This document shows, piece after piece, positions 3,620 to 25,181 of a DNA stretch of 32,726 nucleotides. Position 1 is the stretch's first letter. Every line of letters starts with the position of its first letter. The stretch is from a virus, in IMG/VR virus record IMGVR_UViG_3300009285_003361, positions 1-32,726 of that record; one strand, 5' to 3'. The notes under the pieces were generated by a model, which was given only the letters and a program-made list of their open reading frames with translations, did no database searches and was not told the DNA's origin. The translations under genes and the position numbers were made by a program.

Positions 3620-3804
3620 TTCTTAATATGCTCCGCATGTTCGTCGATCAGCCGGTCTCGCACGGCACCGGGGGCCTTGCCCGCGCACTCGTCTCGCGGC
3701 ACTTCAAACATTTTTCCGCATTCGCACTTGGCTCGCGTCATCGCCATCCAAATAAGCGCGTGGTTTTCCCGCCTCGGTTTTTCAAGCATGAGGATTTTCG
3801 CCAT
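3616..3804 (-). CDS. small CxCG protein, hypothetical
   Basis: The frame is 62 residues from ATG 3804. An alternative start, ATG 3747 (giving MAMTRAKCECGKMFEVP), would avoid the 23-base overlap with the endolysin gene. Neither start has a strong ribosome binding site. The CECG motif with a later DECAGK resembles half of a small zinc ribbon, and the C-terminus is a charged helix, VRDRLIDEHAEHIKK. It is coupled to the next gene by GTGA. Confidence 0.5.
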   Translation of the reverse strand: MAKILMLEKPRRENHALIWMAMTRAKCECGKMFEVPRDECAGKAPGAVRDRLIDEHAEHIKK

Positions 3805-4318
3805 GCGTCAAAGCCGGCATGGCGATTTTTTCGGATAGAGTGAATCGTCCATCCTTCATGGACAACACTTCCCCGCATCGTTCGATGGCTCGGTACGGCG
3901 CGCCAAGACTGATATGCACCCACCAAACGCGCCCCTCGCGCCCCGCTTGGCTCTCAACGATGAGCTGCCCGAATTTGAGCTTGCCGATTCGCGCGGCCGT
4001 GGCGATCTTCCGCCAGGCTTCGGTCACGGTCGTTTCGGTGTCGGGCCCGGCCGGCGACCAGTCCGCGGCTTCGCATTTAAGATGCTGGCTCCTGACGCTG
4101 CCTCCGACCCTGGCATTGAGCGCCAGATAACGCCGGGCGGAATGCACGTCGATATCGCGTCCCAGGATGGACCGGCACGTTTCAAGAAGATCGGCTAATT
4201 CGCGGAGTTTGCGTTCTTCCTCGTCCGTGATATGCCGGTTTTCTTCTTGCAGGTCCACGTGGTCGGTGCGCGTCAACACAAACAGGCTGAAATGCGGGCT
4301 TAACTGGCGGTCAGTCAT
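3782..4318 (-). CDS. M15-family peptidase, phage endolysin
   Basis: This 178-residue protein matches the peptidase M15_3 (D-Ala-D-Ala carboxypeptidase-like) endolysins that cut peptidoglycan cross-links at the end of infection. It opens with the usual LSPHFSLFVLTRTDH. LALNARVGGS (65-74) precedes SQHLKCEAADW (77-87), in which H79 and D86 are the expected zinc ligands, and WVHISL (134-139) supplies the third ligand, H135. The family motif SxHxxGxAxD has glycine replaced by C82 here. ATG 4318 with GAGGAAA upstream is preferred over a TTG seven codons earlier. A holin-like gene lies two bases upstream, forming a lysis cassette. There is no signal peptide, so access to the wall would need the holin. 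Confidence 0.88.
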   Translation of the reverse strand: MTDRQLSPHFSLFVLTRTDHVDLQEENRHITDEEERKLRELADLLETCRSILGRDIDVHSARRYLALNARVGGSVRSQHLKCEAADWSPAGPDTETTVTEAWRKIATAARIGKLKFGQLIVESQAGREGRVWWVHISLGAPYRAIERCGEVLSMKDGRFTLSEKIAMPALTHGENPHA

Positions 4319-4319
4319 C

Positions 4320-4589
4320 TCAGTGTTTCCTCGCCTCAAAAAGTGCCAGGGCTCCGGCTATCACCAGTCCGGCCCACGCGACCAAAGATGACAGCGCGCC
4401 ATCCGCCGCCTTGCGTCCGTGGGCCTCGGCACTCTCCTTATGCTCGGCGAGATCAATGGCGACGAGTTTGACGTTGGAGCTGACCGCGTTGATGTGGTCG
4501 CGCATGTTCTCCTGTTGGGATAACATCAACTTTTCTAACCCCTCAAACTTGGCGTCAAAATAAGATCGGTCAAATGACTCGCGTTCCAT
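4320..4589 (-). CDS. holin-like protein with coiled coil and C-terminal membrane segment
   Basis: From ATG 4589 the product is 89 residues. A charged helical region (about 1-65, for example FEGLEKLMLSQQENMRDHIN, with heptad-like spacing) is followed by one membrane segment near the C-terminus (LSSLVAWAGLVIAGALALFE) and a short basic tail. This layout is that of XhlA-type hemolysin/holin accessory proteins, and the gene sits immediately before the endolysin. ATG 4589 overlaps the end of the preceding gene, and its binding site is weak. A longer reading from 4637 would overlap that gene further and is not favoured. Confidence 0.65.
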   Translation of the reverse strand: MERESFDRSYFDAKFEGLEKLMLSQQENMRDHINAVSSNVKLVAIDLAEHKESAEAHGRKAADGALSSLVAWAGLVIAGALALFEARKH

Positions 4590-4591
4590 GG

Positions 4592-5089
4592 CTACTTGAT
4601 GAGACTCCCGAGCCTGACACTCGCCGTAGCCCGCCACGCGCCCGGATCAAGCGGCTTCCATGCCCGCGCCTGTTGCCAGTCAAGCGGGATCACCGGGCCG
4701 ATGCCGAAGAAGATGGGCGGGAACTTCGACGCCGTGATATATTTCTGCGCCCATGGCGTTGAGAGGATTTTATGCGTCAGGTAGGTCGGGTCGATCGTGA
4801 GTGGCATGACGAACCCCGCGACTTTCTCGTTCTTGCGCGCTTCCCACCCGACATTGACGAATTCCATGAAGTCGCGGCCGCTGGCGTCGTGGAGCGAATA
4901 GATGGCGAGGTAGTTGACCGTGCCGACCCGGCCGTCCATTCCGAGGCTGCCGCCGATCTTCATTTCCTTGGCCTTGCCGACCGCCAGGTCTATGAGGCTT
5001 TGCGGGCCCGGTCCCGGATCAGGTGAGACTTGCGCCTGCGCGCCGATGACTGAGAACAGCAGAACGACCGTCAAGATACTGTGTTTCAT
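4592..5089 (-). CDS. exported hypothetical protein
   Basis: This 165-residue protein has a textbook Sec signal peptide: a basic start MKHS, the hydrophobic ILTVVLLFSVIGA, and a likely cut after A-Q-A (residue 19). The start is secure, since AAGGAGG lies seven bases upstream of ATG 5089. The mature part contains glycine-rich strand-like segments (KIGGSLGMDGRVGTVNYLAI) and alternating hydrophobics, and ends with ATASVRLGSLIK, so a beta-rich fold is likely, although no family is recognised. I found no cysteine. It lies between the fibre gene and the lysis cassette, so it may be a virion or periplasmic factor. Confidence 0.75.
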   Translation of the reverse strand: MKHSILTVVLLFSVIGAQAQVSPDPGPGPQSLIDLAVGKAKEMKIGGSLGMDGRVGTVNYLAIYSLHDASGRDFMEFVNVGWEARKNEKVAGFVMPLTIDPTYLTHKILSTPWAQKYITASKFPPIFFGIGPVIPLDWQQARAWKPLDPGAWRATASVRLGSLIK

Positions 5090-5101
5090 AAGCCTCCTTG
5101 G

Positions 5102-7324
5102 TTAATACTCCTGCACGCCAAATTGGGACACAGTCGCGAAGAAATTGTTGTAGCCGCACTTCGTCGCTCCCATGATAGTGAGAGTCTGCCCCGCGTTATA
5201 GACCGCCGCCGTCAAACAGAAACTATGGCTTCCAGACGCTAGAGTGACGCGGTAAGACATCGAGATCGAATCGCAAAAACCTCCGCTCTTGTTGTTCCAC
5301 GTTGTTCCTCCGGCCGTCGCGTTCCATCGCGCATCCGCATAGCCTCCATCAACAAGGAATCCGATGGAGGCTTCGGAATTGTATGAGCCTATTTGTGCCG
5401 CCCCGCTGAAGCTGACTTGTAATGTACAAGTACCCGCGCAAGTTACGGTCACGGTCGAGGATGGAGCGCAGGCCACTAAACTGGTTTGACTTGTTGACCA
5501 TGCAGGGACATAAGTAAAACTTGATACTTTAGCGGCAGCACCACCCCCGCCGCCGGCCGGCGAAGTGCTGGTAACTGTCCCGTCCGGCCATCGTAGCGTA
5601 GACCCGTTCTCCATGTAGAACTGCCCGGCCAGAAGATGGATTCCGCTTGACGTAGTGAGACTGTATGGGGCGGCCCCTCCCCCGGTCAAAGTGGCGCTGG
5701 CGGCCGAGAGCGCGCCAGTAAGTGCTGCCGTCGCGGCCGCAAGTCCATAGGTCGCAGTGTAATCCGGGGCGGCCACAAGCCCGGTAAACGTGGCTCCGGT
5801 CAGGTTGGCTTTCAAGGCGAGTTGGTCGAAGGCAGCATCCGAAGTGATCGGATTTGTCGAGCCGTTCGTCGCCGCCGTCTCAATCCAGGCCGGCTGGCAG
5901 GTGCCTGCGGCGTTGATCCCGCGGCAAACGTAGCCCGACGCCGCATCTGCCGGGTCGGCGGCTAGGGCGGTTGCTGTTTCAGCGTTTCCAATGGTCACGG
6001 ATGATACGCTGGTAATTCTCCCATCTGGCCCGAAAGTCGTGCGGCAAGATGTGGTCGCATCACCGCAGGTAGCCGGCGCGATGACGGCGGCCACGCTTGA
6101 GGCGATCACGTCCGTATCCAAGATTCCCGCCGCGATGTTCGCGGCCGCGACTCCATCCCCTACTTTGGAGCCCGTGAGAGAGCCGTCCGCGAGATCCGTC
6201 AGGTCCGCGTCGAGGTCTTGTTTCGACGCGAGAGCCGTAGTGATCGTCGAAAGATTCACTTGAGCCGGTGTATCTCTGTCCACCTTCAAGGCAAGCGCGG
6301 TTGTTATGGTCGAGAGGTTCACCTGCGCGGGAGTGTCCCGGTCAACTTTGAGATTGAGGGCGGTCGTCACGGTGGACAAGTTGACTTGGGCCGGAGTATC
6401 CCTATCAACTTTCAGGTTTAGAGCTGTGGTGATGGTGGAAAGATTGATGGATGCCGCAGGAACCACGCCGGAGAGATTAGCGAGCGTCACGAATCCTTGT
6501 TTAGTCACGCTTGATGGATCGAGTTGCTGATTGAGGACATACCCACCGGAGCCAAGAATGGCGACAGATGACGGGTTGACGCCCGCGACATTGCTGGATG
6601 AACCATCCCCGATCATGGAAGCGTTGATGGCAATCGTCGCTCCTGCCGCGCCGGTCGGGCCGGTGGCGCCGGTCGGGCCTATCCCCGTGGCGATCTCCTC
6701 GACGCTGAACTGACAAATCCTGGTATTACAGTTCAACCGGGCAGTGCTGCCGTCCGTAATCATCCCCATGCACCAACTATGGGTGCCGGCTACCGGCGCG
6801 TTTTGGGTGACGTGGACGAATCCCCCGTTCTGACTCGCGCCTACCGGGTTGTTATCCTGGCTTCGGATAAAACCGACAGTTGCGCTCTGGCCGTCGAAGA
6901 AAGCACCGTCTTGCAGAACGATTATACTCTGAACTTGGCTGGCACTGTCATTTTCGAGATCACCACTGTAGGTTATCCGCACCTTATTGCCGACCGTCGT
7001 CATCGTCAATGTTGAGACAGCGGCAAGGCAGCCGGACCATGAAGTGTTAGTTGCCGTGATGCTGGTAGCTGGATAAGTGAAGGAAGATACGACCGTCACG
7101 GACGCGGCGGGCGCAGTCGTTTGGCAAGTGCCATCAGCAAAGCATAGAGATCCGTTGATGGTGCCGCCATTCGTGAGGTCAATTTTTCTGATCCCGCCTG
7201 CCAATGCCCGCGAATTTTCGTTAAGAGCGCCCACGTCGCGGAGGTCTTTAACTTCACGGTTGTAAAAAGGCGGTTCGACTGCTGATGCTTGGAGTGCAAG
7301 CAGCAGCAGGATGCCGTTCATCAT
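5102..7324 (-). CDS. exported fibre-like protein with collagen-like and 21-residue repeats
   Basis: This 740-residue protein starts at ATG 7324, coupled as ATGA to the preceding gene. The N-terminus MMNGILLLLALQASAVEPP reads as a signal peptide, though without a basic n-region. The head region has alternating Cys and beta strands. A short collagen-like GPTGATGPTGAAG sits near residue 220. About four 21-residue repeats built on DRDTPAQVNLST and TTALNLKV follow, then a beta-rich C-terminal domain ending in QFGVQEY. By my count there are 16 cysteines, several in close pairs (GYVCRG/GTCQPAW, CAGTC). The layout resembles trimeric phage fibres and adhesins, so host receptor binding is the likely role. 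Export of a fibre is unusual (see findings). Confidence 0.78.
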   Translation of the reverse strand: MMNGILLLLALQASAVEPPFYNREVKDLRDVGALNENSRALAGGIRKIDLTNGGTINGSLCFADGTCQTTAPAASVTVVSSFTYPATSITATNTSWSGCLAAVSTLTMTTVGNKVRITYSGDLENDSASQVQSIIVLQDGAFFDGQSATVGFIRSQDNNPVGASQNGGFVHVTQNAPVAGTHSWCMGMITDGSTARLNCNTRICQFSVEEIATGIGPTGATGPTGAAGATIAINASMIGDGSSSNVAGVNPSSVAILGSGGYVLNQQLDPSSVTKQGFVTLANLSGVVPAASINLSTITTALNLKVDRDTPAQVNLSTVTTALNLKVDRDTPAQVNLSTITTALALKVDRDTPAQVNLSTITTALASKQDLDADLTDLADGSLTGSKVGDGVAAANIAAGILDTDVIASSVAAVIAPATCGDATTSCRTTFGPDGRITSVSSVTIGNAETATALAADPADAASGYVCRGINAAGTCQPAWIETAATNGSTNPITSDAAFDQLALKANLTGATFTGLVAAPDYTATYGLAAATAALTGALSAASATLTGGGAAPYSLTTSSGIHLLAGQFYMENGSTLRWPDGTVTSTSPAGGGGGAAAKVSSFTYVPAWSTSQTSLVACAPSSTVTVTCAGTCTLQVSFSGAAQIGSYNSEASIGFLVDGGYADARWNATAGGTTWNNKSGGFCDSISMSYRVTLASGSHSFCLTAAVYNAGQTLTIMGATKCGYNNFFATVSQFGVQEY
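6235..6440 (-). repeat. 63-bp tandem coding repeats in fibre gene
   Basis: Three near-identical units and a partial fourth, with period 63 bases, encode the 21-residue unit containing DRDTPAQVNLST. On the + strand the equivalent positions 6271-6280, 6334-6343 and 6397-6406 read tatctctgtc, tgtcccggtc and tatccctatc. Differences fall largely at third codon positions, so the protein repeat is under selection. The regular heptad-like spacing suggests a trimeric coiled-coil or beta-helical shaft. Confidence 0.85.
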
Positions 7325-7731
7325 GCGGCGATTTTTTCCGACTCGATGGCGGTTTTTGTCGCGTCGTAAGTCTTATGGATCAAATGCAGGGCAGTAATTT
7401 GGGCGTCTCCCAATCCGGCAGCCTTGCCTAATTCGTATATTTCGGTCTCCTGTTCTGGTGTCCAACCGGGGGATGGGAGGATGGCATGAGGCAGTTCAGC
7501 GGCAACCGGGACCGTCGTGGGAGTAGCCGCAGGAGCATCATAGCGGTCTATCGGGACATAGGATGAGATTTCCATGGCCGGTGCCTTGCCCTCTATCTGC
7601 CGCTCAATCCGATAGGATAATTCTTGCGAGACAGTCCGACAATTCTTGAACGCCGCGGCCTCAATAGCCTTGTACGCCTCGACCGTCAGGACGATTTTTG
7701 CCGACATGCTACGCTTTGCTTTTCTAGCCAT
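7321..7731 (-). CDS. hypothetical protein with Arc-like N-terminal region
   Basis: ATG 7731 has GGAGGAATC directly upstream, giving 136 residues. Residues 1-48 (MARKAKRSMSAKIVLTVEAY, then a helix-turn-helix run to RIERQIEGK) resemble the ribbon-helix-helix fold of Arc/MetJ-type DNA-binding proteins: a short strand, S-A-K-I-V-L-T-V, followed by two helices. A proline and alanine linker leads to a C-terminal helical part. It may be a late regulator or a small virion protein. Its stop overlaps the fibre start, so the two are co-translated. Confidence 0.6.
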   Translation of the reverse strand: MARKAKRSMSAKIVLTVEAYKAIEAAAFKNCRTVSQELSYRIERQIEGKAPAMEISSYVPIDRYDAPAATPTTVPVAAELPHAILPSPGWTPEQETEIYELGKAAGLGDAQITALHLIHKTYDATKTAIESEKIAA

Positions 7732-7756
7732 GATTCCTCCGTTCTTTTTTTACGAA

Positions 7757-9277
7757 CTATTCTACTCCGCCAGCGATCTCCGCCCCGGTGACCCGCGTCG
7801 CCGTGCCCGCGACTTTCTTGGCTATCTTGACCGGGGCAGCCTGGCTCGCTTTAATGGTCTTGGCGAGGTTCTGCGGCGTCACCAGTGCCCTAGCCAAATC
7901 TTTGATGTTCCCCGATGGCGTCCCGATGGCATGCCGTGTGAATGACCTCGATGCCAAAACGTCCATCAAATCCTCGATCTCCGATCTCAGAGACGGATAC
8001 TTTTCTCCGACCTCACGGATGAGGTCCTGTCGCAAACCGCCCTTGTTAAAGAACCGTTCAAGCGTGTCCACCTTGCCGATCATTGCCATTCGGCTCTTGT
8101 CCTGCGTCCCGACCAGTTTGCGTAGCGAGTCGTAATCAGTGGAGAAATCGTGAAATTTAGCGTTGGCGCTAGTCAGTTCCCCATAGTTCATCTTCTTGCC
8201 GGCGTTTTCGATCGCGTCCCGGAAGCCGCCGGCCAATCTCTTGATAGCGAGCTCGCCGACCTCGGAAGTGACCTGCGGGACCCCGCCAAACTTAAAGCTC
8301 TGCAATTTATCTAGTTCCCGGCGGATGCGGACCATGCTTGCGGCGCTCTTCATCGGATCATCGCGCATATTCTTTATCAAGCCTTGTATCTTGATGTAAT
8401 CACCCGCCATAAGAGCCTTAACAGTGGAGTCCTGCCCTCCCATTCCCTCATTGACGAACTTTTCCAGGTCGTCGGCCAGGGGGTTGAGGTCAAACACCTT
8501 TTCCCCTTTTGTCTTGGCATGGAGCCCTTCCAATGCCTTCTCCACCGCCTCGCCACTAGACTTTCTGAGTCTGCTTATGTGATCTTGTATCTTTCCTAGG
8601 ATATTTACTGCCTTGTTCTCCACAGCCAACTGCGCGGCGGGCCCGCCAGTCTCTACCGCATATGGGCGGGTCAATGCTCTCTTGATCGCCTCAGCCGGAA
8701 TCTTTAGATAGGTGGCGGCGAACTCTGGCAAGAGCGACACTGCCTTTCCCGCAACGCCGAGGCCGAGGTCCATCATGGCCGCACCAAGTCCCATGGCTCC
8801 TATGTCGGTGATATCTTCTTTCAGATTCGCACCGGGGCGATCACCAATGGCCGCAGATGCCGCTTTCTTCGCAGCCTCACCAGCAGACACGCCGACGAAT
8901 TGCATTGCGGCTGAGGCTAAGAGACTTGTCCCACCCGTCATTGTAGCGGCGGCAATAGAACCGGCAGCCAATGGGCCATATTCACCGACTACCCGGCCTG
9001 TTGATTCTTCCAGGCTTGGTTTTTCGATCTTCGTTCCTGCGAGTCCAGCGCGGACGCCACGGACGAATTCGCCAGGATCTAGCCTCTGATTCCTTGGATC
9101 ACGCTGATGTTTCGCACGTTCCGCCAATTCCCGCTCTCGTATCGCAGCCAACTGTTCCCCGATCGTCTTATTCGCCTGTTCCAGATGCGGATCGACCGGA
9201 GCATCAACCATTGGGCCAAGATCGAAGAAATCAGGCGACTCTATTGTGCTCGGGCCGAGATCGGAGAAATCAGGCAT
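7757..9277 (-). CDS. putative internal virion / ejection protein
   Basis: This 506-residue protein starts at ATG 9277 behind AAGGAG. The N-terminus carries a duplicated D-F-x-D-L-G-P motif (residues 3-8 and 16-22). Residues about 90-135 are rich in alanine and glycine and hydrophobic (LAAGSIAAATMTGGTSLLAS), and much of the remainder is predicted helical and charged. Long helical, alanine-rich proteins next to the tail hub are typical of podovirus ejection proteins, which leave the capsid ahead of the DNA and form a channel across the envelope. I find no cysteine in the sequence. The assignment is from composition and position, not from a recognised domain. Confidence 0.6.
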   Translation of the reverse strand: MPDFSDLGPSTIESPDFFDLGPMVDAPVDPHLEQANKTIGEQLAAIRERELAERAKHQRDPRNQRLDPGEFVRGVRAGLAGTKIEKPSLEESTGRVVGEYGPLAAGSIAAATMTGGTSLLASAAMQFVGVSAGEAAKKAASAAIGDRPGANLKEDITDIGAMGLGAAMMDLGLGVAGKAVSLLPEFAATYLKIPAEAIKRALTRPYAVETGGPAAQLAVENKAVNILGKIQDHISRLRKSSGEAVEKALEGLHAKTKGEKVFDLNPLADDLEKFVNEGMGGQDSTVKALMAGDYIKIQGLIKNMRDDPMKSAASMVRIRRELDKLQSFKFGGVPQVTSEVGELAIKRLAGGFRDAIENAGKKMNYGELTSANAKFHDFSTDYDSLRKLVGTQDKSRMAMIGKVDTLERFFNKGGLRQDLIREVGEKYPSLRSEIEDLMDVLASRSFTRHAIGTPSGNIKDLARALVTPQNLAKTIKASQAAPVKIAKKVAGTATRVTGAEIAGGVE

Positions 9278-9279
9278 AT

Positions 9280-10344
9280 CTACTCCTTAATCTTGAGTCC
9301 AGGATCACGCTTCTTCGCGGCCTCGATATTCTTTTCCAGTATTTTATGCTCTTTTCCTGAACTGTCAATGATGGTCATTATATCCGAATCGCGTGGACCA
9401 CCCTGCAACTTGTCCAGGATTGCCTTGTACTGAGATTGAACTTTTGCGATGTTCTCTTTAAGGACATCAGCAGGCTGGTTGGGATCAAGGGAAGTAGCGG
9501 TAGAACTCAGTAATTGAAGTTCGATGTTGGAAACCTGGCCCAAAGCCCCCCCAGTCTTTGAATTGTCGCGCATTTCTTGTAACCTTCCAAATGCGAGATT
9601 GGATCTGAGAGTGTCAATATAACCTTCAAGCGCCTTGCGACTGGAACCGGGGACTTTGGACAAGACTGCTCCTGGCACTCCAGTAGTTTTCATGCCAATT
9701 ATTCCTATGGCTTTCGTGGCCGCATCAATTACATTTGTGGAATGCAACTGTGCTGCATTTCTCGCATCTTCTATCTTTTGTGCCGTTGTCTCTCTTTTTT
9801 CTGCCGCGGGACCTCCCGGAATGGCTTCAAGTTTTTCACCACCCGCAACAAATCGGAAGCCTGGCGGAGCTTTATCCCCTTTGGGTTTTTCGGTTTTGGT
9901 CTGAGCGAGAAAAACCGCATTTGGGATCGCATCCCCCGGTTGGTATCCCATATTGGCAATTTTGGGATAGTTGGCGATGATTTCCGGGGTCACGTTGACG
10001 ACTCGTTTGTCAGCTGGCGGGATATATCGGGCACCAGTCGGCAACCCAAGATTCGGCAAAAGTGATTGTATCGTCATTGGCTCGCCAGTTGGACTGGTAA
10101 ACGTACCGCCTTTTTCGAGCAATCCCATGAGTCCGCTTTCTCGCCCTCCAGCTTCAGTCGCAAGTCGCGCTTTTTCCGCTTCGGATGCTTTCGCTACCGT
10201 TTCTCTTCGGCTCGCTAATCCTTCCCCAATGCCTTTCCCCGCCTGCAAAATGCCCTGCGCGATCGGGTCCATTTGCGATGCCTGCATTTGAGCGATCAAA
10301 GCGGCGAGTTGAGACGGCTGACGACGCGAAATAAACTCGGGCAT
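9280..10344 (-). CDS. putative internal virion protein
   Basis: This 354-residue protein starts at ATG 10344 with AGGAGG upstream, and is separated by two bases from the gene before and two from the gene after. It opens with helical segments rich in alanine and glutamine (SQLAALIAQMQASQMDPIAQ) and contains a charged coiled coil (ASEAEKARLATEAG). The C-terminal half is helical and ends in KKRDPGLKIKE. No signal peptide and no cysteine were found. Its position between the S74-domain protein and the 506-residue ejection-like protein supports an ejection or tail-internal role, but no family is recognised. Confidence 0.6.
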   Translation of the reverse strand: MPEFISRRQPSQLAALIAQMQASQMDPIAQGILQAGKGIGEGLASRRETVAKASEAEKARLATEAGGRESGLMGLLEKGGTFTSPTGEPMTIQSLLPNLGLPTGARYIPPADKRVVNVTPEIIANYPKIANMGYQPGDAIPNAVFLAQTKTEKPKGDKAPPGFRFVAGGEKLEAIPGGPAAEKRETTAQKIEDARNAAQLHSTNVIDAATKAIGIIGMKTTGVPGAVLSKVPGSSRKALEGYIDTLRSNLAFGRLQEMRDNSKTGGALGQVSNIELQLLSSTATSLDPNQPADVLKENIAKVQSQYKAILDKLQGGPRDSDIMTIIDSSGKEHKILEKNIEAAKKRDPGLKIKE

Positions 10345-10345
10345 A

Positions 10346-11176
10346 TTATGCCTCCTGCTTTAAGAGCATGATCTTGCGTCTGACTTCATACGGAAGCCCG
10401 GAATAATTGACAGTCTTGAATTTTTCTCTCCATCCGACCAAGGATGGATAGAATCTCTCCACATCTTGCGCGATGACTCCGATAGACTCACCGAGATATG
10501 TCCCAAGAGACCTGGCTTTTTCATTCCAATCCCATTTGACTATATCCAATTCTCCTGCTTTCCCAATGATGCGGATATTCTTTTTGAGATTCGCATCCGA
10601 AAGAGCTCCACCGGCAATCAGCCCGCCGGCGCCGATGGCCGAACCCCAAAGTGCGCTTTGTCTTGCCTTGCCGGCAAGATGCGCCGCTTGTTCGCGGTCG
10701 AGCCTGGCCTGTTCCATGTCTCGCTGCGAGGACAATTCCTGGCCGAGGGCCTGGGCGAGTGTTACGAACATTTCCCTGTTTCCCTGGATATCCATGCCCA
10801 TCGCCTGCATGATGTACTGCGCCAGCGCCGACGACTGCTGCGCGATGAGCTGGCCCACCTGTTGCTCTCCTGCGGCCCTGGCCTGGCCCATGGAGGCTGC
10901 CTCGATATCGGAGCCAGTCAGGCCGCGTTTCATGGCCTCAGACTGCGCCGCGGCGACATTGGCTCGGGAGCCCTCACGCAAAGAAGCGATGGCAGGAGCT
11001 TGCTGTCCCATAAGCAGCTCCTGGATGCTAGGCAACACATCGGTCATGCGGGCCTGCGGGGACTGTAAGAGCTTAAAAATGGTGCCGGGATCGGCGCTCG
11101 GGCCGCCTGGACCGAGAATGTCCATGAGACTCGGTAGTTGTGGGGCCTGATACGGGGCCATCATATTTTCGGCCAT
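10346..11176 (-). CDS. virion protein with C-terminal S74 intramolecular chaperone domain
   Basis: This 276-residue protein starts at ATG 11176 with AGGAGAG upstream. Residues 1-170 are helical and rich in glutamine and alanine. A glycine-rich hydrophobic hinge (SAIGAGGLIAGGA) leads at residue 193 to SDANLKKNIRIIG, the opening of peptidase S74 (endosialidase-type) chaperone domains. GVIAQDVERFYPSLV and VNYSGLPYEV follow, as expected for the family. These domains trimerise tail fibres and often cut themselves off at the serine of the SD motif. Here the domain is short (about 84 residues) and is attached to a helical rather than a beta-fibre protein, so cleavage is uncertain. Confidence 0.8.
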   Translation of the reverse strand: MAENMMAPYQAPQLPSLMDILGPGGPSADPGTIFKLLQSPQARMTDVLPSIQELLMGQQAPAIASLREGSRANVAAAQSEAMKRGLTGSDIEAASMGQARAAGEQQVGQLIAQQSSALAQYIMQAMGMDIQGNREMFVTLAQALGQELSSQRDMEQARLDREQAAHLAGKARQSALWGSAIGAGGLIAGGALSDANLKKNIRIIGKAGELDIVKWDWNEKARSLGTYLGESIGVIAQDVERFYPSLVGWREKFKTVNYSGLPYEVRRKIMLLKQEA

Positions 11177-11186
11177 ATTGTCTCTC

Positions 11187-14165
11187 CTAATCCTCAGTCA
11201 GTCTTGTGAACACGATTTTAAGCCCGAAGACCTTCCACGGTCCTTGCAAGCCGGAGTGCGTCAATCCGAAACTGAACCACCGAGCCGATACATTATTGCT
11301 TAAATCGGCCGGTACTTTCGCGGCGATGAAGCGGGAATAGTCCTCATTGAGATTGATTGCGTTTAGCGAAAATGTGTCCGTTGAGGCGTCGATCGTATAC
11401 GATGGCGTAAGGCTGATAGCATAGCCTGGATCGGGGAGCCCCGCAAGATCATAATACATCCGCTTCAATTCCTTCTTCTGCCAAGTGTTGCCGAAATCGA
11501 AGTCTTTTGTCTTGATCGTTGATGTGAAAGACGCGCCGTCATCATCCTGCCCGACATCCATTTGATAAACGAATCCGGTGCTCGCCGAATCCCCGCAGTA
11601 TAATTTGCGGTTATAAAGCCCCAAGGATGAGCAATTCGGCGCGTCATGTAAAACCCATTGATCCCGAGAATCGAGGACCAAGAGGCGATCATTCACCACC
11701 GTCCCGGATGTGCCGGAAGTGTAGGCCAAATAGTAGCGGTCCCGGTAGACTTCCGATGCAAGAGCTGGCCTAGATGTTCCCTCATCCCAATTTATCGTGC
11801 AATCGTTGAGCGTCGGCGTTTCCGTGCCGGAATCGAGATCGAAAAGAACGCGATAAGCGACATAGGCGGCGGTCGCCACGGAAATAACGGTGTTATTTGT
11901 CTGCGCGGTAAAAGTCGCGGTTGTGCGAGTGACTGAATTGCAAGTTGGCCCGGTGGAAATAGAGAAAGTGATCCCCCCGTTGTTCAGGACCTGATTGCAT
12001 TGGAACAGGCCCCAATCGGTTATAGCGGTCCCAGGATTGCGGCACTGGCTGATGAAATAGCCGGTGGTTGCTGATGGAAGGGTTACTATTGTGATCCCAG
12101 GCGATTCAGTTAAACCGGACTGCGAGAACGTGGCCCTATATTGAGCATATCTGCTCTTATCACTTGGCTGTGTGTTGTTTGCAATACTGGCGTATGACGA
12201 CCACAGATCGTTGTTCGGCGACGTGGAACTCCTGATTGAATATGAGAGAGTCGTCCCTGAGATGGGGAATGAGGTTACATCTAGGGACCCAAACGTCGGG
12301 GTTGAAAAGGTGGTGTCAAGAATACGCGATGTGAAAGTAGCTACGGAAACAAAATCAGTATTTAATGGATGGGGAATATCCGTTGAAATATGAAAAAAAT
12401 CAACAAAAACTGTCGCTGGCGAAGCCGCAGTATTACATCTTATTGTTGCTTCAGAAACGGTTGGAGAAGCAGAAATGGTTCCAGAAGCCTTGAACACCCC
12501 ATTACGATAAAAATAAACCGCTGGATTGGTTATCGTACCGACAATTACTGTGTAGGTAGAATAAGCTGGTTGCACTAATGTTTCTACCCCGGCATTAACT
12601 AGCCCATTCGCTCTATAAACTACTTGCCAAGTTGAAATATATACCGCTCCAAAAACGGTACTTCCTTTATTAAATTGAAAGATGAGTGTCGTATCTGTAT
12701 TAGGCGCTGAATTTTGACCACGAGCAACAAGCATTGTATTTGTCCCGACCCCACTGGAACCAGAAAAAGTTTTTTTATAAAGCGTGTCGCTCCCGGATGA
12801 GCATGTGAATGTAAGACTACCTCCGGATACTGATTCAGTAGGTGATCCCGTTATTGACCAACCATCATTCGTTGGCGAGACATTCGCATCATAACGGAAT
12901 ACATAGGTACTCGTGATCCCGGAAAAATGAACATATCCGTTCGGGTTCACCCCGCATCCAGAACATGTCCCGAGAGAGAATAGAGAAGTCGTATTGTCGA
13001 GCAGAGTTGCGGATGATGGCACGATATTCCCGGGGCTTATCGTCGCACTCATCGGCGCGCCTGGTCCCGAAGCCGTCAGGTTCCCCGCCTCAAAATCTGT
13101 CTGACTGCTATCAGTATTGCTCCGTGAATTTCCGCCGGAAACGATGATGGTATCCACCAAATCCCGCACTGGATCGGAAACGCGAGTGATGCTCGGCCCG
13201 GTCATCTTCTCAACGCCGCGCTTGGAGAGCCAGTAGAGCGAACCCTGTTTTTCCCGGACGGATCGGTTCTCGACACAACCTACTTCGCGGGAAATCTCCC
13301 GGACGGCGAAATCCCGGCGATCAAAACCGTATAGGCCCCAGGTAGAATCCTCTTTTCCCATCACAAGCACATCTTGGTAGGTCCCCATGACGCACCGTAG
13401 CCGCTTGCCATCATTGACGCCACCCAGAGAGATCACCGCCGGCGAAGTCGAAACCGGAGAGGCCGGGATGGTATAGTCCGTTCCGTCCAGCTCGCCGGAC
13501 ATGCGGAGTTGCGATAAAGTCCCCGAGCAGTTTCCCAGGATGACCCGATTACGGAAACAGTCAATAGCGGAGCAGGTAGGAGCGCCGGAGACCGAGCCGG
13601 TCGAAGTTCCATCCCAAAAAAACATCGTATCCGATCCATTGACGCACCATAATCTTCCAAGGCATTGCTGACAATCCATGTCCTCGGTCGCGGATTTTCC
13701 CGCCAAAGCCGGACTGATTGCCGAAAATTCCCCATCCCCGTCAGATTGATACATGGTCTGCGAGGACAAGGCAACCATGTATTCGGTCCCATCGGTAGCC
13801 CGGAAGGGCCAGACGCCGCGGACTGATTGGGAGGATGCGGCGGTAGTATTAAACTTGGCAAATCCCTTGCGGCGTGAAATCCCGGCATCCTCATCCAAAT
13901 AAATGTTTTCGGCTTCGGTCAGGCAGGTGTCCCCAATCTGCGATGAAGCATAGCGGGTGACGAGTCCGCATTGTCCCAGGTTGCGGATTTCCAACTTTTC
14001 CTCGGCCTGGGCAAGGGCCAGAGAGGGCGGGAATAGCAGGATGAGGGATAAGAGCTTGGCAACGACCCCAGGAATGGCCCTGGCGGGCCTGACGATGGCC
14101 CAGGAGGGCCTGGAGGCGGCCTCGGCGGCCCAGGAGGGCCCGGCGGCGGATGATTTCAAGCTCAT
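11187..14165 (-). CDS. tail hub / stabilisation protein (gp10-like) with predicted signal peptide
   Basis: This 992-residue protein starts at ATG 14165, overlapping the preceding stop as TAATG. From about residue 58 it follows the pattern of podovirus tail hub or stabilisation proteins (P22 gp10, T7 gp12-like): NLGQCGLVTRYASSQ, then AENIYLDEDAGISRRKGF, then beta-propeller-like repeats with short strands (WPFRATDGTEYMVALSS). Before this lies an extra N-terminus with degenerate 10-residue repeats (GPSW, RPSW) and a hydrophobic stretch, VVAKLLSLILLFPPSLALAQ, that reads as a signal sequence with a cut near A-Q-A. By my count there are 20 cysteines, many in pairs (MDCQQC, GTCSGCG). The start has no strong Shine-Dalgarno sequence and depends on coupling. 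Confidence 0.75.
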   Translation of the reverse strand: MSLKSSAAGPSWAAEAASRPSWAIVRPARAIPGVVAKLLSLILLFPPSLALAQAEEKLEIRNLGQCGLVTRYASSQIGDTCLTEAENIYLDEDAGISRRKGFAKFNTTAASSQSVRGVWPFRATDGTEYMVALSSQTMYQSDGDGEFSAISPALAGKSATEDMDCQQCLGRLWCVNGSDTMFFWDGTSTGSVSGAPTCSAIDCFRNRVILGNCSGTLSQLRMSGELDGTDYTIPASPVSTSPAVISLGGVNDGKRLRCVMGTYQDVLVMGKEDSTWGLYGFDRRDFAVREISREVGCVENRSVREKQGSLYWLSKRGVEKMTGPSITRVSDPVRDLVDTIIVSGGNSRSNTDSSQTDFEAGNLTASGPGAPMSATISPGNIVPSSATLLDNTTSLFSLGTCSGCGVNPNGYVHFSGITSTYVFRYDANVSPTNDGWSITGSPTESVSGGSLTFTCSSGSDTLYKKTFSGSSGVGTNTMLVARGQNSAPNTDTTLIFQFNKGSTVFGAVYISTWQVVYRANGLVNAGVETLVQPAYSTYTVIVGTITNPAVYFYRNGVFKASGTISASPTVSEATIRCNTAASPATVFVDFFHISTDIPHPLNTDFVSVATFTSRILDTTFSTPTFGSLDVTSFPISGTTLSYSIRSSTSPNNDLWSSYASIANNTQPSDKSRYAQYRATFSQSGLTESPGITIVTLPSATTGYFISQCRNPGTAITDWGLFQCNQVLNNGGITFSISTGPTCNSVTRTTATFTAQTNNTVISVATAAYVAYRVLFDLDSGTETPTLNDCTINWDEGTSRPALASEVYRDRYYLAYTSGTSGTVVNDRLLVLDSRDQWVLHDAPNCSSLGLYNRKLYCGDSASTGFVYQMDVGQDDDGASFTSTIKTKDFDFGNTWQKKELKRMYYDLAGLPDPGYAISLTPSYTIDASTDTFSLNAINLNEDYSRFIAAKVPADLSNNVSARWFSFGLTHSGLQGPWKVFGLKIVFTRLTED
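14097..14140 (-). repeat. GC-rich 14-bp repeat, period 30, in tail hub N-terminus
   Basis: The + strand sequence GGCCCAGGAGGGCC occurs at 14097-14110 and again at 14127-14140, with further GGCC blocks between and around the copies (14076-14150). The 30-base period encodes the degenerate 10-residue repeats GPSWAAEAAS and RPSWAIVRPA ahead of the predicted signal segment. It looks like a recent local expansion. Its composition differs from the remainder of the gene. Confidence 0.75.
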
Positions 14166-14875
14166 TATGGCCCCGCAGGGATGCCGGGAGTGATGGAAGG
14201 GTTATTTGACGGCCGCGCCATAGCCACGCCGGCAAGCCTGGCAAGCCCCTGAATGTAAATCTGCTGATACAACTGGATTAAATTCGTTTGCCCGTCTATT
14301 GCGGCCATGCGGACGGCCGCGCAGTAGGCTAGAATGTGATGAAACGAGTAGAATTCCCGGATTCCGTTGAAAGGCACGTCCGCATCAACCGTTATATCAT
14401 TGGCCTGCGCGTAAAACTCCACCTTGACCGTGCCTGTAGACGTGGAATCGGCCGGGAACGGATAAATCCCGATCATTGTCCTAGAGGCAAAAGTGACGAA
14501 ATAATTTTGCGGTGTTCCCGAGACTGTTTCCCATTCTTTGGTTTGGTCAAGCGCAACCGGGCTTTTCTCGGATAAGACCCTGTTTCTCCATGTCATGCGC
14601 TTGATTGCCAAAAAGGAGTTAGGGACAGCGTAATAGGTCGTGCCGGCCACGAGCTCTATATTTGAGGACCGGATGATCGGCCAGGTTTGGGCCACTGCCT
14701 CGGATTGGCAGTCCAAGATAAGATCATCTATTTGTCCGTTCGTAAATCTGAGGCGGGAAGTGGCGGAGCCGGAATCGGAAACTAGAACCCTGGCTTGTGA
14801 GCGGATATCGGAGAGCGTGAGAGCGTTGGCGCTACCCGCTAGAAACGCCACCGCCAGAAAACCAAGTCCAAGCAT
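14165..14875 (-). CDS. head-tail adaptor (gp4-like) with predicted signal peptide
   Basis: This 236-residue protein matches the podovirus head-tail adaptor pattern: LTLSDIRSQARVLVSD at the start of the fold, LRFTNGQIDDLILDCQSEA, VAGTTYYAVPNSFLAIKRM, GTPQNYFV and MIGIYPFPADSTSTG, then a helical C-terminus. Such adaptors bind the portal and seat the tail. The first 18 residues (MLGLGFLAVAFLAGSANA) precede the fold and look like a signal peptide ending in A-N-A, though without a basic n-region. ATG 14875 is preceded by GAGGGGG. I see no plausible in-frame start between it and the fold, so the extension appears real. Export of an adaptor would be unexpected. Confidence 0.78.
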   Translation of the reverse strand: MLGLGFLAVAFLAGSANALTLSDIRSQARVLVSDSGSATSRLRFTNGQIDDLILDCQSEAVAQTWPIIRSSNIELVAGTTYYAVPNSFLAIKRMTWRNRVLSEKSPVALDQTKEWETVSGTPQNYFVTFASRTMIGIYPFPADSTSTGTVKVEFYAQANDITVDADVPFNGIREFYSFHHILAYCAAVRMAAIDGQTNLIQLYQQIYIQGLARLAGVAMARPSNNPSITPGIPAGP

Positions 14876-14967
14876 GACACCCCCTCACTTTACCCATGCC
14901 CCCACCGCTATCCCGGCGATGAAGACTACGACTATCCAAGGCCACAGATAGGGGGCCTGTGCTCGAC

Positions 14968-15378
14968 CTACGGAACGGATTGAGTTTCCTCTACTGCAAC
15001 TACGGTCATGGATGCTACGCCGACCGTCGTATAGCAGTAAAATGCCGCCGAACTGTTCGTGCAAAAAACTGGAAAAGTGGCCGAATTGGTTGATTCGCCA
15101 AGAACGTACAGATTTGATGCCTGCACGGTGGACGATCCGATGGCAACGGTCACGCCGCCGCGGTTCTCAAAACAGATTCGCCGTCTGGATTTATCCGTTA
15201 CGGCGGCTCTAAGCAGATTTGCAACCCCAGTCGAGTTGCACAAAACTGAATATGTCCCGATCGTGTCGCCACCGGATTGAGCCACGCGGCGAGTCCGGCC
15301 GCCTTCCATGAGAAAATCAGACGGGTCGGCCGCCCATGCAGCTATCGGGAATAAGAGAGCAAGCAGGATAATTTTCAT
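14968..15378 (-). CDS. small exported cysteine-containing protein
   Basis: This 136-residue protein starts at ATG 15378. The N-terminus MKIILLALLFPIAAWA is a clear signal peptide with a cut near A-W-A, before ADPSDFLMEGG. The mature part is beta-rich and contains four cysteines (VLCNST, RRICFEN, VFCTNSS, FYCYTT), consistent with two disulfides. It lies between two other signal-bearing genes, so it is probably a tail or fibre component. The 92-base gap after it (14876-14967) holds a short hydrophobic frame without a normal start codon. Confidence 0.75.
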   Translation of the reverse strand: MKIILLALLFPIAAWAADPSDFLMEGGRTRRVAQSGGDTIGTYSVLCNSTGVANLLRAAVTDKSRRRICFENRGGVTVAIGSSTVQASNLYVLGESTNSATFPVFCTNSSAAFYCYTTVGVASMTVVAVEETQSVP

Positions 15379-15387
15379 GCCGCCTCT

Positions 15388-16425
15388 TTACTCACCAGTC
15401 CCGCAGCCGACCGTACCCGAACCTTCCCTAGCGAATTGAGCCACGGCGGTTCCGATACCCCGACAAACCGCGTAGGTAAGCGTACAGTTGGAACATTGCA
15501 CTAATGCCCCCACGAAATCCGGGGTCAAAGTATCAATCTGCGCCTTTGTATATTGACGGAATCCCACATGGCCAGCAGGACCTATCCGCACTAAAGGATT
15601 CTCAGAGGAATCCCGAGCGATGAGCAAATCAGCAGTCTGAGAAGCAGCGGCCGTGATGACGGTCCCGGAAGATGAAGCGTTGGTTGCTATGATGTCAAGC
15701 ATGGCGTCGGGCGTGGTATCACCGATCCCAAGTTCTCCGGTTATCTCGATCTCTTGATTCTGAACGTCCACCGCCAGCAAATCAGTAGACCCGTTCTGGC
15801 TTGAAATTCTAAGCCCATAGGTATCTGCCGCCCTAGGCGCTACCTCTAAAGTCGCGTCTGGCGTGGCATCGCCTCCCACACCCACCGCATCCGCCGAACC
15901 ATCCACGATCAAAAGATTGGCGGTGTTATCCCCTTCTATGCGAAGATCGACAGCGGCGCCTCCCTCATTAAGGATGACTCCACCCTCCTGGACAATAGCC
16001 CCATCAGCCGAGGCCACCGTCAATAAATCAGTGGACCCGTTCTGGCTGGAAATCCGCAAGACATAGACGTTATCTCCGGACGCCACTTCCAGACTCGCAT
16101 CCGGGGTCGTCTCGTTAATGCCGACTTCATCCGCTGGTCCGTCCCCTAAGAAGGAATCCCCGTCTACATCTAGGTCGTCGGTTACAGTAACGTCATCGCT
16201 GAACGTGGCATCCAAAGCCAGTACATTAGACCACCGCAGCGCCGATGTGCCAAGAGACGCATCGTTGTCCGTGGTCGAGATGATATTCCCGCTTGAATCT
16301 ACGCAAACTTCCTCGCCGCCATCCCCCCAACAGGTCTCCGGGTCAACCGTAGTCCCGGTGATACGGGCCTGGACAGGACCGCAGATGAGCAGAACCGCCA
16401 TCAAAAACGAGAATAATTTAGTCAT
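15388..16425 (-). CDS. exported fibre-like repeat protein
   Basis: ATG 16425 overlaps the upstream stop as TGATG and has AGGAG at 16433-16437. A GTG one codon earlier is also possible. The 345-residue product begins MTKLFSFLMAVLLICGPVQA, a good signal peptide. The mature part has long beta-type repeats: TPDASLEV...RISSQNGSTDLLTV occurs twice with small changes, and TPDAMLDI starts a third. Its DNA repeats lie near 15780-15870 and 16027-16120. Cysteines occur near both ends of the mature protein (PETCWGDGGEEVC, VQCSNCTLTYAVCRGIG, GCGTGE). The repeat pattern resembles phage fibre shafts that carry beta-helical segments. Confidence 0.75.
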   Translation of the reverse strand: MTKLFSFLMAVLLICGPVQARITGTTVDPETCWGDGGEEVCVDSSGNIISTTDNDASLGTSALRWSNVLALDATFSDDVTVTDDLDVDGDSFLGDGPADEVGINETTPDASLEVASGDNVYVLRISSQNGSTDLLTVASADGAIVQEGGVILNEGGAAVDLRIEGDNTANLLIVDGSADAVGVGGDATPDATLEVAPRAADTYGLRISSQNGSTDLLAVDVQNQEIEITGELGIGDTTPDAMLDIIATNASSSGTVITAAASQTADLLIARDSSENPLVRIGPAGHVGFRQYTKAQIDTLTPDFVGALVQCSNCTLTYAVCRGIGTAVAQFAREGSGTVGCGTGE

Positions 16426-16922
16426 CACTTTCTCCTACGGAAATTTTCCAAGTTTCGCAGTTCGGGATTGTCGGGCTCGATCACCCCGGCCAATTCCTTG
16501 AGCCGGCCGCATACTGCTTTTCCGCGACTTCCGCATTCCCAGGCCATAATCTTGCCTTTGGAACGCTCAAAAGCCATTTCGGCATCCGGCCCCATTTTCG
16601 ACATCACTCCTGGATAGCCAAGACCTTGCTCATATTTGGTCAGCGAGTTTGACTCGAATTCGTTGAGCAGCGTCTTGAATTCCCGGTAGGCCGCGTTCTT
16701 GCGAATCCCGTCCACTATGGGAGGGGAGTCTTTCTCCAAGACGTTTTTTAACAGCGCTTCTCTCGCCGCGAGATTTCCGTCGTTAATCTCGAATTCACGC
16801 GGCTTGAATACTCTCGGTTCCCCTTCCGGGATATCGGCCGGCGCGCGCCTCATGGCACGGATGCCTTTCAATTCCTTGTTGATCCGCAGCCTGTCGGATG
16901 GCGAGAGGTAGGACTTATTCAT
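16425..16922 (-). CDS. hypothetical basic protein downstream of major capsid gene
   Basis: This 165-residue protein starts at ATG 16922, just after the capsid gene, with GGGGGAAGG upstream. It is charged and mainly helical (LAAREALLKNVLEK, YREFKTLLNEFESN) with a basic C-terminus (LRNLENFRRRK). It has two cysteines (WECGS, AVCGR). No signal peptide is present. Its position between the capsid and tail genes suggests a head completion or connector role, but I recognise no family. Confidence 0.65.
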   Translation of the reverse strand: MNKSYLSPSDRLRINKELKGIRAMRRAPADIPEGEPRVFKPREFEINDGNLAAREALLKNVLEKDSPPIVDGIRKNAAYREFKTLLNEFESNSLTKYEQGLGYPGVMSKMGPDAEMAFERSKGKIMAWECGSRGKAVCGRLKELAGVIEPDNPELRNLENFRRRK

Positions 16923-16932
16923 TGCCTTCCCC

Positions 16933-17835
16933 CTAGCTTACAAGGTGTCCGTACACTCCACGCCAGTCCACAGCGCTGGAATTCAGCGACATGTAAACGG
17001 CGAACTTCGACACCATCGTATCGAATTCACCTGAGCGGAAGAACTGCGTCGGCTCCCATTCCCTGAGAATGTGATGGCGCTTGAGCAGTTTGGAATCCGC
17101 CGCGAACCAGTTGTTCACGTCAGAAAGGTAATTCTCCCAGACCACCAGTTTATACTTGCCTTGATGAAAGTTTCTGTTGTTGTTGGCGGTATCGATCTTC
17201 CCGGAGGACTTGATGAGTTCATACGCCTTCTCCTCCAAGTCTGCCGGGACGATGAGCATGTCCATGCGCGCGGCCATTTTGTTTCCCGCATTGGTCTGGT
17301 GCTTCAGAATCAGGAGCCTGGTTGCCTCAACAGCGGACGGCGAGAAAGCGGATGTGCCGCTGTTGTCCTGAGTGAGCGCGTTTTGCGCGTTCGTGTGGGC
17401 CGAATTGAAGAATGACAACGTATCCCCGGATGTGAACGAAGACGTGAACCCGTCCACGAACAACTGAGCCGCGGTAGTCTCCCGTCTGTCTCGCGCCGAG
17501 TCGGCCAAGGCCGCAGCCCGGTTTCGGAGAACTCCATAGAGATCGTTGCGAAGAAGTTGCCGCGTGGCCTTGATCCCAAGCGCCCACTGCTGCTCAGTGA
17601 CCGATTTCCGGTAGCCCTCGGTCGGGGATGAGAAGGAGATTGATCCCTCGTTGAACTCGGACATTTCCCCGATGTCTCCGACTTCCAGGTCATATTCGGT
17701 CCCCTGGGTCGCTTCCTTGACGGTGCAAACAGCCCCAATCATGGACTCGAACTGTCGGTACTGGTCATCGAAGACGATGGACAGGTCCTTCTGGACGATA
17801 CGGGGCCAATTGGCCTGCGTGGCAAGAGCTGGCAT
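16933..17835 (-). CDS. major capsid protein (HK97 fold, Mu gpT-like)
   Basis: This 300-residue protein starts at ATG 17835 behind AAGGAG. Features of Mu gpT-like HK97-fold capsid proteins include the N-terminal SIVFDDQYRQFESMIGAV, the E-loop region GIKATRQLLRNDLYGVL, LSFFNSAHTNAQNAL in the middle (compare the gpT 'F-N-x-x-H' motif) and MDMLIVPADLEEKAYELI in the P domain. It lies downstream of the portal and probable scaffold, the usual order. A terminator (19037-19090) separates it from them, so its expression may be set separately from that of the packaging genes. I found only one cysteine. Confidence 0.88.
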   Translation of the reverse strand: MPALATQANWPRIVQKDLSIVFDDQYRQFESMIGAVCTVKEATQGTEYDLEVGDIGEMSEFNEGSISFSSPTEGYRKSVTEQQWALGIKATRQLLRNDLYGVLRNRAAALADSARDRRETTAAQLFVDGFTSSFTSGDTLSFFNSAHTNAQNALTQDNSGTSAFSPSAVEATRLLILKHQTNAGNKMAARMDMLIVPADLEEKAYELIKSSGKIDTANNNRNFHQGKYKLVVWENYLSDVNNWFAADSKLLKRHHILREWEPTQFFRSGEFDTMVSKFAVYMSLNSSAVDWRGVYGHLVS

Positions 17836-18702: not shown

Positions 18703-18978
18703 TCATCGAAGAACATCCGAAACCGGCGATTTCATAAATTCATCATGGCGGCGAGAACCAAAAAAATTCTTCGAGCCGCACAAGCTGCATCCGCCATTGG
18801 TATTGTGGGCCTGGTTGCCGTCCGCTCCCGAGCCCTGTTGAGTGATGGCGCCAAGCGCGCCGGAGCCATCGAGAGTGCCGCCGCTATGATCGTCGCGGTT
18901 CAGGTCCGCGCCGGGAAAACCGCAAATGCCGCAGGAGACGCGGCGAGTAGAGACGCTTAGACCTTGACCATCAGTCAT
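18703..18978 (-). CDS. glycine-rich protein with two CxxCG zinc knuckles
   Basis: The frame encodes 91 residues from ATG 18978. CGICGFPG (16-23) and CSLCGSKNFF (64-73) flank a long glycine-rich loop (SGGTLDGSGALGAITQQ). Two CxxCG motifs in a small protein suggest one zinc ribbon. Third codon positions are strongly G or C in this frame, as in neighbouring genes, whereas the overlapping rightward frame lacks that bias. There is no clear Shine-Dalgarno sequence before ATG 18978, so the start is uncertain. Confidence 0.5.
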   Translation of the reverse strand: MTDGQGLSVSTRRVSCGICGFPGADLNRDDHSGGTLDGSGALGAITQQGSGADGNQAHNTNGGCSLCGSKNFFGSRRHDEFMKSPVSDVLR

Positions 18979-20063: not shown

Positions 20064-20462
20064 TCAGCTTTGCTCGGATTCGATCTTCTTTAGTTCTTCG
20101 ATCATCTCATTTAAGCGAACGCGCTTACGCTCAATGACAGATTCGACTTCCACTTCCGACTTGATGAGCTTGGCAAATGCGATAGCCCCGCCCAAAGCCT
20201 TGAGACTGGCGAAATCGGCCATGGCGTCAACCGTTTCCCATTCGCCGTTTAGAGTCTGCCGATTTGGGCCGGCGGATAGAATGCTCTCTATTTTCTCGCG
20301 GTTCGCATCAATGGCCCGATCAATACGCGGCCCAATGCGCTTCCACAGGATGCTTTCTTTTTGGCCTGCCATTTCTTCCAGATCGCGCATTTCTGCCTTT
20401 AGGCGGGATATCGACTCGCGGCGCTTGGCAATTCCTTCTTCGCTGATTCTCACTAAACTCAT
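20064..20462 (-). CDS. coiled-coil protein after portal
   Basis: This 132-residue protein starts at ATG 20462 in an ATGA overlap with the portal gene. It consists largely of charged helices: AKRRESISRLKAEMRDLEEM near the start and RKRVRLNEMIEELKKIESEQ at the end, with a short hydrophobic part (LKALGGAIAFAKLIKSEV) between. It may be a head or portal accessory protein. No family is recognised. Confidence 0.65.
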   Translation of the reverse strand: MSLVRISEEGIAKRRESISRLKAEMRDLEEMAGQKESILWKRIGPRIDRAIDANREKIESILSAGPNRQTLNGEWETVDAMADFASLKALGGAIAFAKLIKSEVEVESVIERKRVRLNEMIEELKKIESEQS

Positions 20463-24816: not shown

Positions 24817-25181
24817 TTGGATTCCTCCGATTGGAGGCTGTCAATCGCTTTAATGTCGGATTCGTCGATGATGAGATATTCGTCGCTGGTCGAATCGTCC
24901 TTGATGACGATCTGCTTGTCGGCCCAGTCGTAGAGGCCGTACCACCAAACGACATCGCCGGGCTCGTACCATCCGCGCTCATGACCATACTTCGCGCTGT
25001 TAGTCCGGCGCCCGACCGCGATGACGATCCCGCAGAACAGGTCTCCTTTCGTCGTATTGCGATCCCGTAGGTCCTCGGGGATCAAAATGCTCTTAACTCG
25101 CTCATCGACCGGCTTGCGCTTCACTAGGACCTTGGTCCCGAGCGGCCGCAAACGGGAAATATCCAGCGTTGTTTCGTTCAT
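24807..25181 (-). CDS. GroES-like co-chaperonin (Cpn10)
   Basis: The 124-residue protein follows the Cpn10 pattern: LRPLGTKVLVKRKPVDERVK (residues 11-30) for the first strand and start of the mobile loop, SILIPEDLRD (31-40) carrying the short hydrophobic GroEL-binding triplet, GIVIAVGRR (51-59), YEPGDVVWWY (72-81) and EYLIIDESDIKAI (101-113) for the final strands. Ordinary GroES is about 97 residues, so this protein is about 25 longer, mainly through extra residues between the third and fourth strands and at the C-terminus. T4 gp31 and similar phage co-chaperonins help the host GroEL fold the capsid protein. It starts at ATG 25181 in an ATGA overlap with the terminase stop. Confidence 0.82.
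   Translation of the reverse strand: MNETTLDISRLRPLGTKVLVKRKPVDERVKSILIPEDLRDRNTTKGDLFCGIVIAVGRRTNSAKYGHERGWYEPGDVVWWYGLYDWADKQIVIKDDSTSDEYLIIDESDIKAIDSLQSEESKCR

Follow-up and report, generated by a model that had tools for sequence, protein, structure and literature searches.

In phage P22 the tail body is formed on the filled head by gp4 and gp10 (PMC3741392), and these tail parts share one compartment with the head. We analyzed a 32,726-base virus record, IMGVR_UViG_3300009285_003361 (this whole stretch of DNA is called the window below), in which the same two protein types, a portal-tail adaptor and a tail nozzle, start with Sec-type signal-like segments, as do four other proteins of the tail block; here the inner membrane would separate the tail parts from the head. 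Our favoured reading is that the tail of this podovirus is probably built outside the cytoplasm, from proteins that would be exported by Sec, cleaved and disulfide-bonded in the periplasm and joined to heads at a breach of the inner membrane. The signals, their conservation, the cleavage-site pattern, the restriction to one clade and the paired cysteines are seen directly. Sec-dependent virion proteins that use signal peptidase, as proposed here, are known from the filamentous phages (the M13 coat proteins), and a filamentous phage minor coat protein has its disulfides made in the periplasm. The M13 coat proteins are however inserted in the membrane and extruded with the DNA, whereas the tail parts encoded by the window would be soluble and would belong to a capsid phage. 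Filamentous-phage-like extrusion was ruled out, as terminase, portal, major capsid protein (MCP) and endolysin are all present. We found no description of an exported tail adaptor or nozzle in any tailed phage in the open-access literature; each protein belongs to a known family, and for the proposed export route no precedent was found.

Signal-like starts in the tail module

The window holds a single long minus-strand gene block running from the terminase to the lysis genes, in which TerL, the portal, the MCP, an SU10-type adaptor and an M15 endolysin were assigned by family searches. A sequence-only reading had claimed that six proteins of the tail block begin with signal-like hydrophobic segments. 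All six open reading frames were recovered at the same coordinates and each was confirmed in sequence to have a hydrophobic start of this type. The features are as follows, with the evidence for each in brackets.

4592-5089, minus strand: 165-residue protein with a predicted signal peptide at 5033-5089, MKHSILTVVLLFSVIGAQA followed by Q (sequence)
5102-7324, minus strand: 740-residue fibre with 16 cysteines and a predicted signal peptide at 7280-7324, MMNGILLLLALQASA followed by V (sequence; homologues)
11187-14003, minus strand: mature tail nozzle (hub) with 20 cysteines, predicted to start with EEKLEI (AlphaFold, Foldseek, cysteine pairs)
14004-14165, minus strand: N-terminal signal region of the nozzle, an R/K-containing n-region of 36 residues and then LLSLILLFPPSLALAQA followed by E, with an h-region and an AQA site (sequence; short canonical signals in relatives)
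14165-14821, minus strand: mature portal-tail adaptor of the SU10/GP4 type, predicted to start with LTLSDI (Pfam PF24175, AlphaFold, Foldseek)
14822-14875, minus strand: predicted signal peptide of the adaptor, MLGLGFLAVAFLAGSANA followed by L (sequence; alignment of 22 adaptors; forced start)
14968-15378, minus strand: 136-residue accessory tail protein (p136) with 4 cysteines and a predicted signal peptide at 15331-15378, MKIILLALLFPIAAWA followed by A (sequence; homologues; even cysteine number in the clade)
15388-16428, minus strand: 345-residue fibre-like protein (p345) with a predicted signal peptide at 16366-16428, MTKLFSFLMAVLLICGPVQA followed by R (sequence; hydrophobic start in 17 of 17 homologues)

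The p345 gene has an ATG start at 16425 and a GTG one codon upstream of it. Most of the six homologues of the 740-residue fibre have a hydrophobic start; a homologue search with the 165-residue protein found none. As the sequence-only reading had cautioned, the fibre and the adaptor of the window lack a basic n-region; that of the nozzle is over-long, and most relatives have one (MKIL.., MRYI.., MKRA..). The signal-bearing genes form two runs, one from p345 to the nozzle and one of the distal fibre genes, which flank the signal-less ejection-protein genes. This is the split that would be expected if head-bound proteins stay inside and tail-forming proteins are exported.

The adaptor matches PF24175 (SU10_adaptor) with 72.3 bits against a cut-off of 27 (E 9.6e-20), the match starting at adaptor residue 20 and model position 2. 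In its AlphaFold model (pLDDT 87) the signal is a separate helix (residues 3-11) and the fold starts with its helix 1 at residue 21, so that the hydrophobic segment is indeed an addition ahead of a complete fold. Foldseek ranked the solved adaptors of GP4, A4, SU10 and VP1 highest (E 4e-9 to 3e-8). The mature nozzle was modelled with a pLDDT of 73, residues 362-552 being mostly unreliable, and matched Pa223 (E 3e-17), SU10 (2e-14), LME-1, A4 and VP1 and, further down, T7 gp12 and P22 gp10. What had been read as a gp4-like adaptor and a tail hub are therefore identified as a GP4/SU10-type portal-tail adaptor and a podovirus nozzle of the SU10/T7 gp12/P22 gp10 type; going by the models, the first is the ring beneath the portal and the second the nozzle beneath that ring. 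The adaptor is like those of the SU10, GP4, A4 and P22 gp4 type in its fold, in the adaptor-then-nozzle gene order and in its position downstream of the capsid gene, and the nozzle has its fold and its adjacency to the adaptor gene in common with those of SU10, T7 gp12, P22 gp10 and Pa223. Compared with these known proteins, the clade of the window adds a signal peptide of cleavable type to the adaptor, with a co-varying cysteine pair in some members, and a signal peptide and many paired cysteines to the nozzle.

Conservation, predicted cleavage sites and origin of the signals

Scans with the capsid protein and the hub led to the identification of 72 loci, some overlapping or near-identical, with about 18 distinct relatives in the clade, a group of uncultured short-tailed phages with signals on nearly all tail parts. 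Each protein was scored by the most hydrophobic uncharged 10-mer near its N-terminus, with a threshold of 2.0 and equal leniency on the start for all roles. Scores of at least 2.0 were obtained for 19 out of 20 clade adaptors (the remaining one scored 1.91), 18 out of 19 clade nozzles, all 17 p345 homologues and all 15 p136 homologues. The nozzle that failed is that of the window, whose hydrophobic core lies behind 36 residues and beyond the scanned range. Wherever the N-terminus is intact, the adaptors and nozzles of the clade have a signal-like segment, the exceptions being frameshifted or end-cut contigs. In contrast, the threshold was reached by none of 12 TerL, 21 portal, 24 MCP, 17 scaffold and 13 ejection proteins and by none of the zinc-ribbon proteins, which bears out the earlier statement that packaging, portal, scaffold and capsid proteins lack the segment. 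Comparison of 78 tail with 157 head proteins gave a Mann-Whitney p of 6e-36, a value inflated by related sequences. The signal-less genes of the window include:

7757-11176, minus strand: three ejection-protein-like genes between nozzle and fibre, no signal (family search; signal scoring; cysteine count)
16933-17835, minus strand: MCP, no signal, used as the query for finding relatives (PHROG 4523/371; signal scoring)
20459-22516, minus strand: portal protein, no signal (PHROG 1216; signal scoring)

Signals on all phage proteins alike were ruled out by the head and ejection proteins, and an oddity of a single genome by the number of distinct relatives. Weak scorer matches in deco260, a protein of the upstream head region, were rejected as signals because the stretch is internal. 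A 91-residue zinc-ribbon-like protein (four cysteines, CxxC; 18703-18978, minus strand) stands beside the capsid genes in 50 loci, across the whole capsid-protein group.

Outside the clade 0 out of 8 adaptors and 0 out of 14 nozzles scored at least 2.0, and those of the cultured Roseobacter phage CRP-207 and Microcystis phage MaAM05 start at the fold, unlike those of the clade. The extension is conserved in the clade and lineage-specific. In an MCP tree (43 rows) a branch with 99% support separates the signal-bearing rows from the rest, no tested signal-less row is found among them and a single change of signal state separates the tested rows; judged by this protein, the signal-bearing phages form one clade. 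One locus outside it, L016, has a signal-bearing truncated adaptor (11455-11856), which may mean that the signal was gained twice, exchanged or gained earlier. Three outgroup phages have signal-bearing fibre-like proteins (L017, 11094-16514; L018, 15918-17720; L068, 13729-16818). Of these, L018 and L068 have no signal on the adaptor and nozzle genes that were seen, so export may have begun with the fibres. A further locus with the full module, L046 (JASEHE010000006.1), lies in a metagenome-assembled genome named Verrucomicrobiota bacterium Yes70-15, which is either the host or the bin of a misplaced phage contig; SU10-type adaptors in other genomes of this phylum have no evident signal where the start is readable.

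In the alignment of 22 adaptors, position -1 is A, G, S or C in 18 out of 18 clade members and position -3 holds a small or aliphatic residue; the conserved part of the fold starts directly after the predicted cleavage site. The initiator methionine of signal-less relatives ('MLATIAEI', 'MAKTLSTL') aligns with the mature start of the clade adaptors, so cleavage at the predicted position would restore the ancestral N-terminus. The pattern resembles that of signal peptidase I substrates, and the prediction of export is well supported by sequence. The divergence in the adaptor alignment (A1) was too high for its use in a scan. The sequence-only reading had offered three meanings for the segments. 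Periplasmic tail assembly fits best, and permanent N-terminal anchors are disfavoured by the signal-peptidase site and by the paired cysteines described below. Uncleaved anchors, with a role in DNA entry or in holding the assembling tail at the inner membrane, would agree with a hydrophobic segment conserved across the clade; the small residue at -1, the small or aliphatic residue at -3 directly ahead of the fold, the short and signal-like segments and cysteine pairs that imply translocation of the protein body make them very unlikely.

The start of the window adaptor is forced by an in-frame TGA 12 nucleotides upstream, and a Shine-Dalgarno-like GAGGGGG precedes the ATG. No ATG, GTG or TTG lies near the mature start of this adaptor, and no conserved internal start that would give a signal-less form was found in the clade. 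Misplaced start codons are ruled out for the adaptor by the TGA, and internal starts are not conserved. A cytoplasmic signal-less paralogue was looked for in 11 records and none was found; these records have a single adaptor and a single nozzle or, where there are two adaptors, a signal on both. Locus L004 (12523-13943) has such a tandem pair of adaptor genes.

Paired cysteines in the signal-bearing proteins

Proteins that fold in an oxidising compartment are taken here to gain and lose cysteines in pairs. Among 18 nozzles, seven pairs of cysteine columns co-occur with zero exceptions (both/one/none: 9/0/9, 7/0/9, 11/0/7, 6/0/12, 11/0/3, 4/0/10 and 5/0/9), and among these columns no two non-partners co-occur perfectly. 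On a tree built without the cysteine columns, partner columns change equally often, 1 to 3 times per pair and 12 times in all. In mature numbering the nozzle pairs include 12/27, 111/120, 654/688, 669/735 and 791/803. Two pairs lie in register on hairpins predicted by AlphaFold, 111/120 (strands 110-114 and 117-121) and 255/268 (strands 255-260 and 263-268). The adaptor has one perfect pair (8/0/11), and in the p136 family each clade member has either two or four cysteines beyond residue 25. No perfect pair was found in the clade portal, TerL, MCP, scaffold, deco260 or ejection protein, and the 276-residue ejection-protein-like family has no cysteine in 13 relatives (2,765 residues). Raw cysteine frequency differs only weakly between nozzles inside and outside the clade (p 0.04), so it is the pairing and not the number that carries the argument. 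Perfect pairs also occur in outgroup nozzles and outgroup portals, each on three sequences with both cysteines; in the outgroup nozzles each of four columns is linked to the other three, a pattern that shared descent would give. The paired cysteines of the clade behave as disulfides would, a line of support independent of the signals which supports, and is not proof of, export before lysis.

Two rival explanations have to be weighed against this evidence. The signals could be inefficient or regulated, an unexported fraction building the virion in the cytoplasm and the exported fraction acting otherwise, for example in receptor block against superinfection. This would solve the problem of head closure and agrees with the weak n-region of the window adaptor. 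The adaptor and nozzle pairs however point to an oxidised functional form, no internal start close to the mature N-terminus is conserved in the clade, and a retained signal would precede the first helix of the fold; we consider this explanation unlikely. It could also be that the hydrophobic starts are not export signals at all and that the cysteine pattern is a phylogenetic coincidence or the result of oxidation after lysis. The signals are recognized purely from sequence, as this would allow, but the contrast between tail and head proteins (with its kinship-inflated p), the adaptor cleavage-site pattern and the confinement, within the clade, of perfect pairing to signal-bearing proteins leave it highly improbable.

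Proposed assembly across the inner membrane

The lysis end of the block bears on how heads and tails would meet.

3782-4339, minus strand: M15 peptidase endolysin without a signal peptide (PF08291, PHROG 894)
4320-4637, minus strand: 105-residue protein with one C-terminal transmembrane segment, a holin candidate (sequence)

The holin candidate had no match in family searches (PHROG, Pfam). Lacking an export signal, the endolysin presumably leaves through a holin, which must finally open the inner membrane. Elsewhere in the window, TerL (25178-27859, minus strand) is split by a LAGLIDADG intein (PF14890, PF14528), a TnpB/OrfB-like protein (Cas12f1-like_TNB, OrfB_IS605; 30132-31187, plus strand) lies at the edge of the phage block, and a D12-class adenine-specific DNA methyltransferase (PF02086) is encoded at 1182-2045 on the plus strand.

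In the mechanism that we propose, the protein of the adaptor ring, that of the nozzle and several fibre and accessory proteins would be made as Sec precursors. After export, signal peptidase I would remove the segment where each fold begins, and disulfide bonds would form by oxidation in the periplasm. The steps up to the periplasm are those of the standard Sec and signal peptidase I pathway. Heads would be filled in the cytoplasm, where the capsid, portal, packaging and ejection proteins would remain. Heads and periplasmic tail parts would meet only once the inner membrane is breached, most likely at holin-triggered lysis, when capsid-sized lesions could let heads dock onto adaptor-nozzle assemblies; the lesions made by the lambda holin are big enough for capsids. 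What we infer is that export takes place, that oxidation occurs in the periplasm and, most of all, when and where heads and tails are joined. Assembly in two compartments, with heads filled in the cytoplasm, a complete tail (adaptor, nozzle and fibres) folded and oxidised in the periplasm, joining through the holin-opened membrane and lysis as the last assembly step, has in our judgement an even chance of being correct.

Tail parts might instead be exported to the periplasm or out of the cell and be joined to heads only after complete lysis. The same sequence evidence agrees with this, and the signals on fibre-like proteins and not on adaptor or nozzle in L018 and L068 suggest that late joining may be the older state. 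Dilution would however make assembly of a multi-subunit ring inefficient, and we regard joining after lysis as quite unlikely.

Several points weigh against periplasmic assembly with joining at the breached membrane. Export, and virions containing exported parts, are both deduced from sequence. The window adaptor has no basic n-region and the n-region of the window nozzle is unusually long. Behind the cysteine pairs stand 12 inferred changes, with 1 to 3 for each pair, and the disulfides might form after lysis without export. Finally, the adaptor of known podoviruses serves to close the head just after it has been filled, going by the P22 work of King, Strauss and others as it appears in the reference list of PMC3741392. 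With the adaptor normally in this role, heads would here need another plug until lysis.

The assembly of tailed phages is taught as cytoplasmic, with the adaptor sealing the filled head. If the favoured reading is true, this clade would need another means of holding its DNA and a joining step that crosses the membrane or is coupled to lysis, and it would offer a natural example of selection for disulfide-stabilised tail proteins. The question of whether head and tail must meet in the cytoplasm would then become directly testable.

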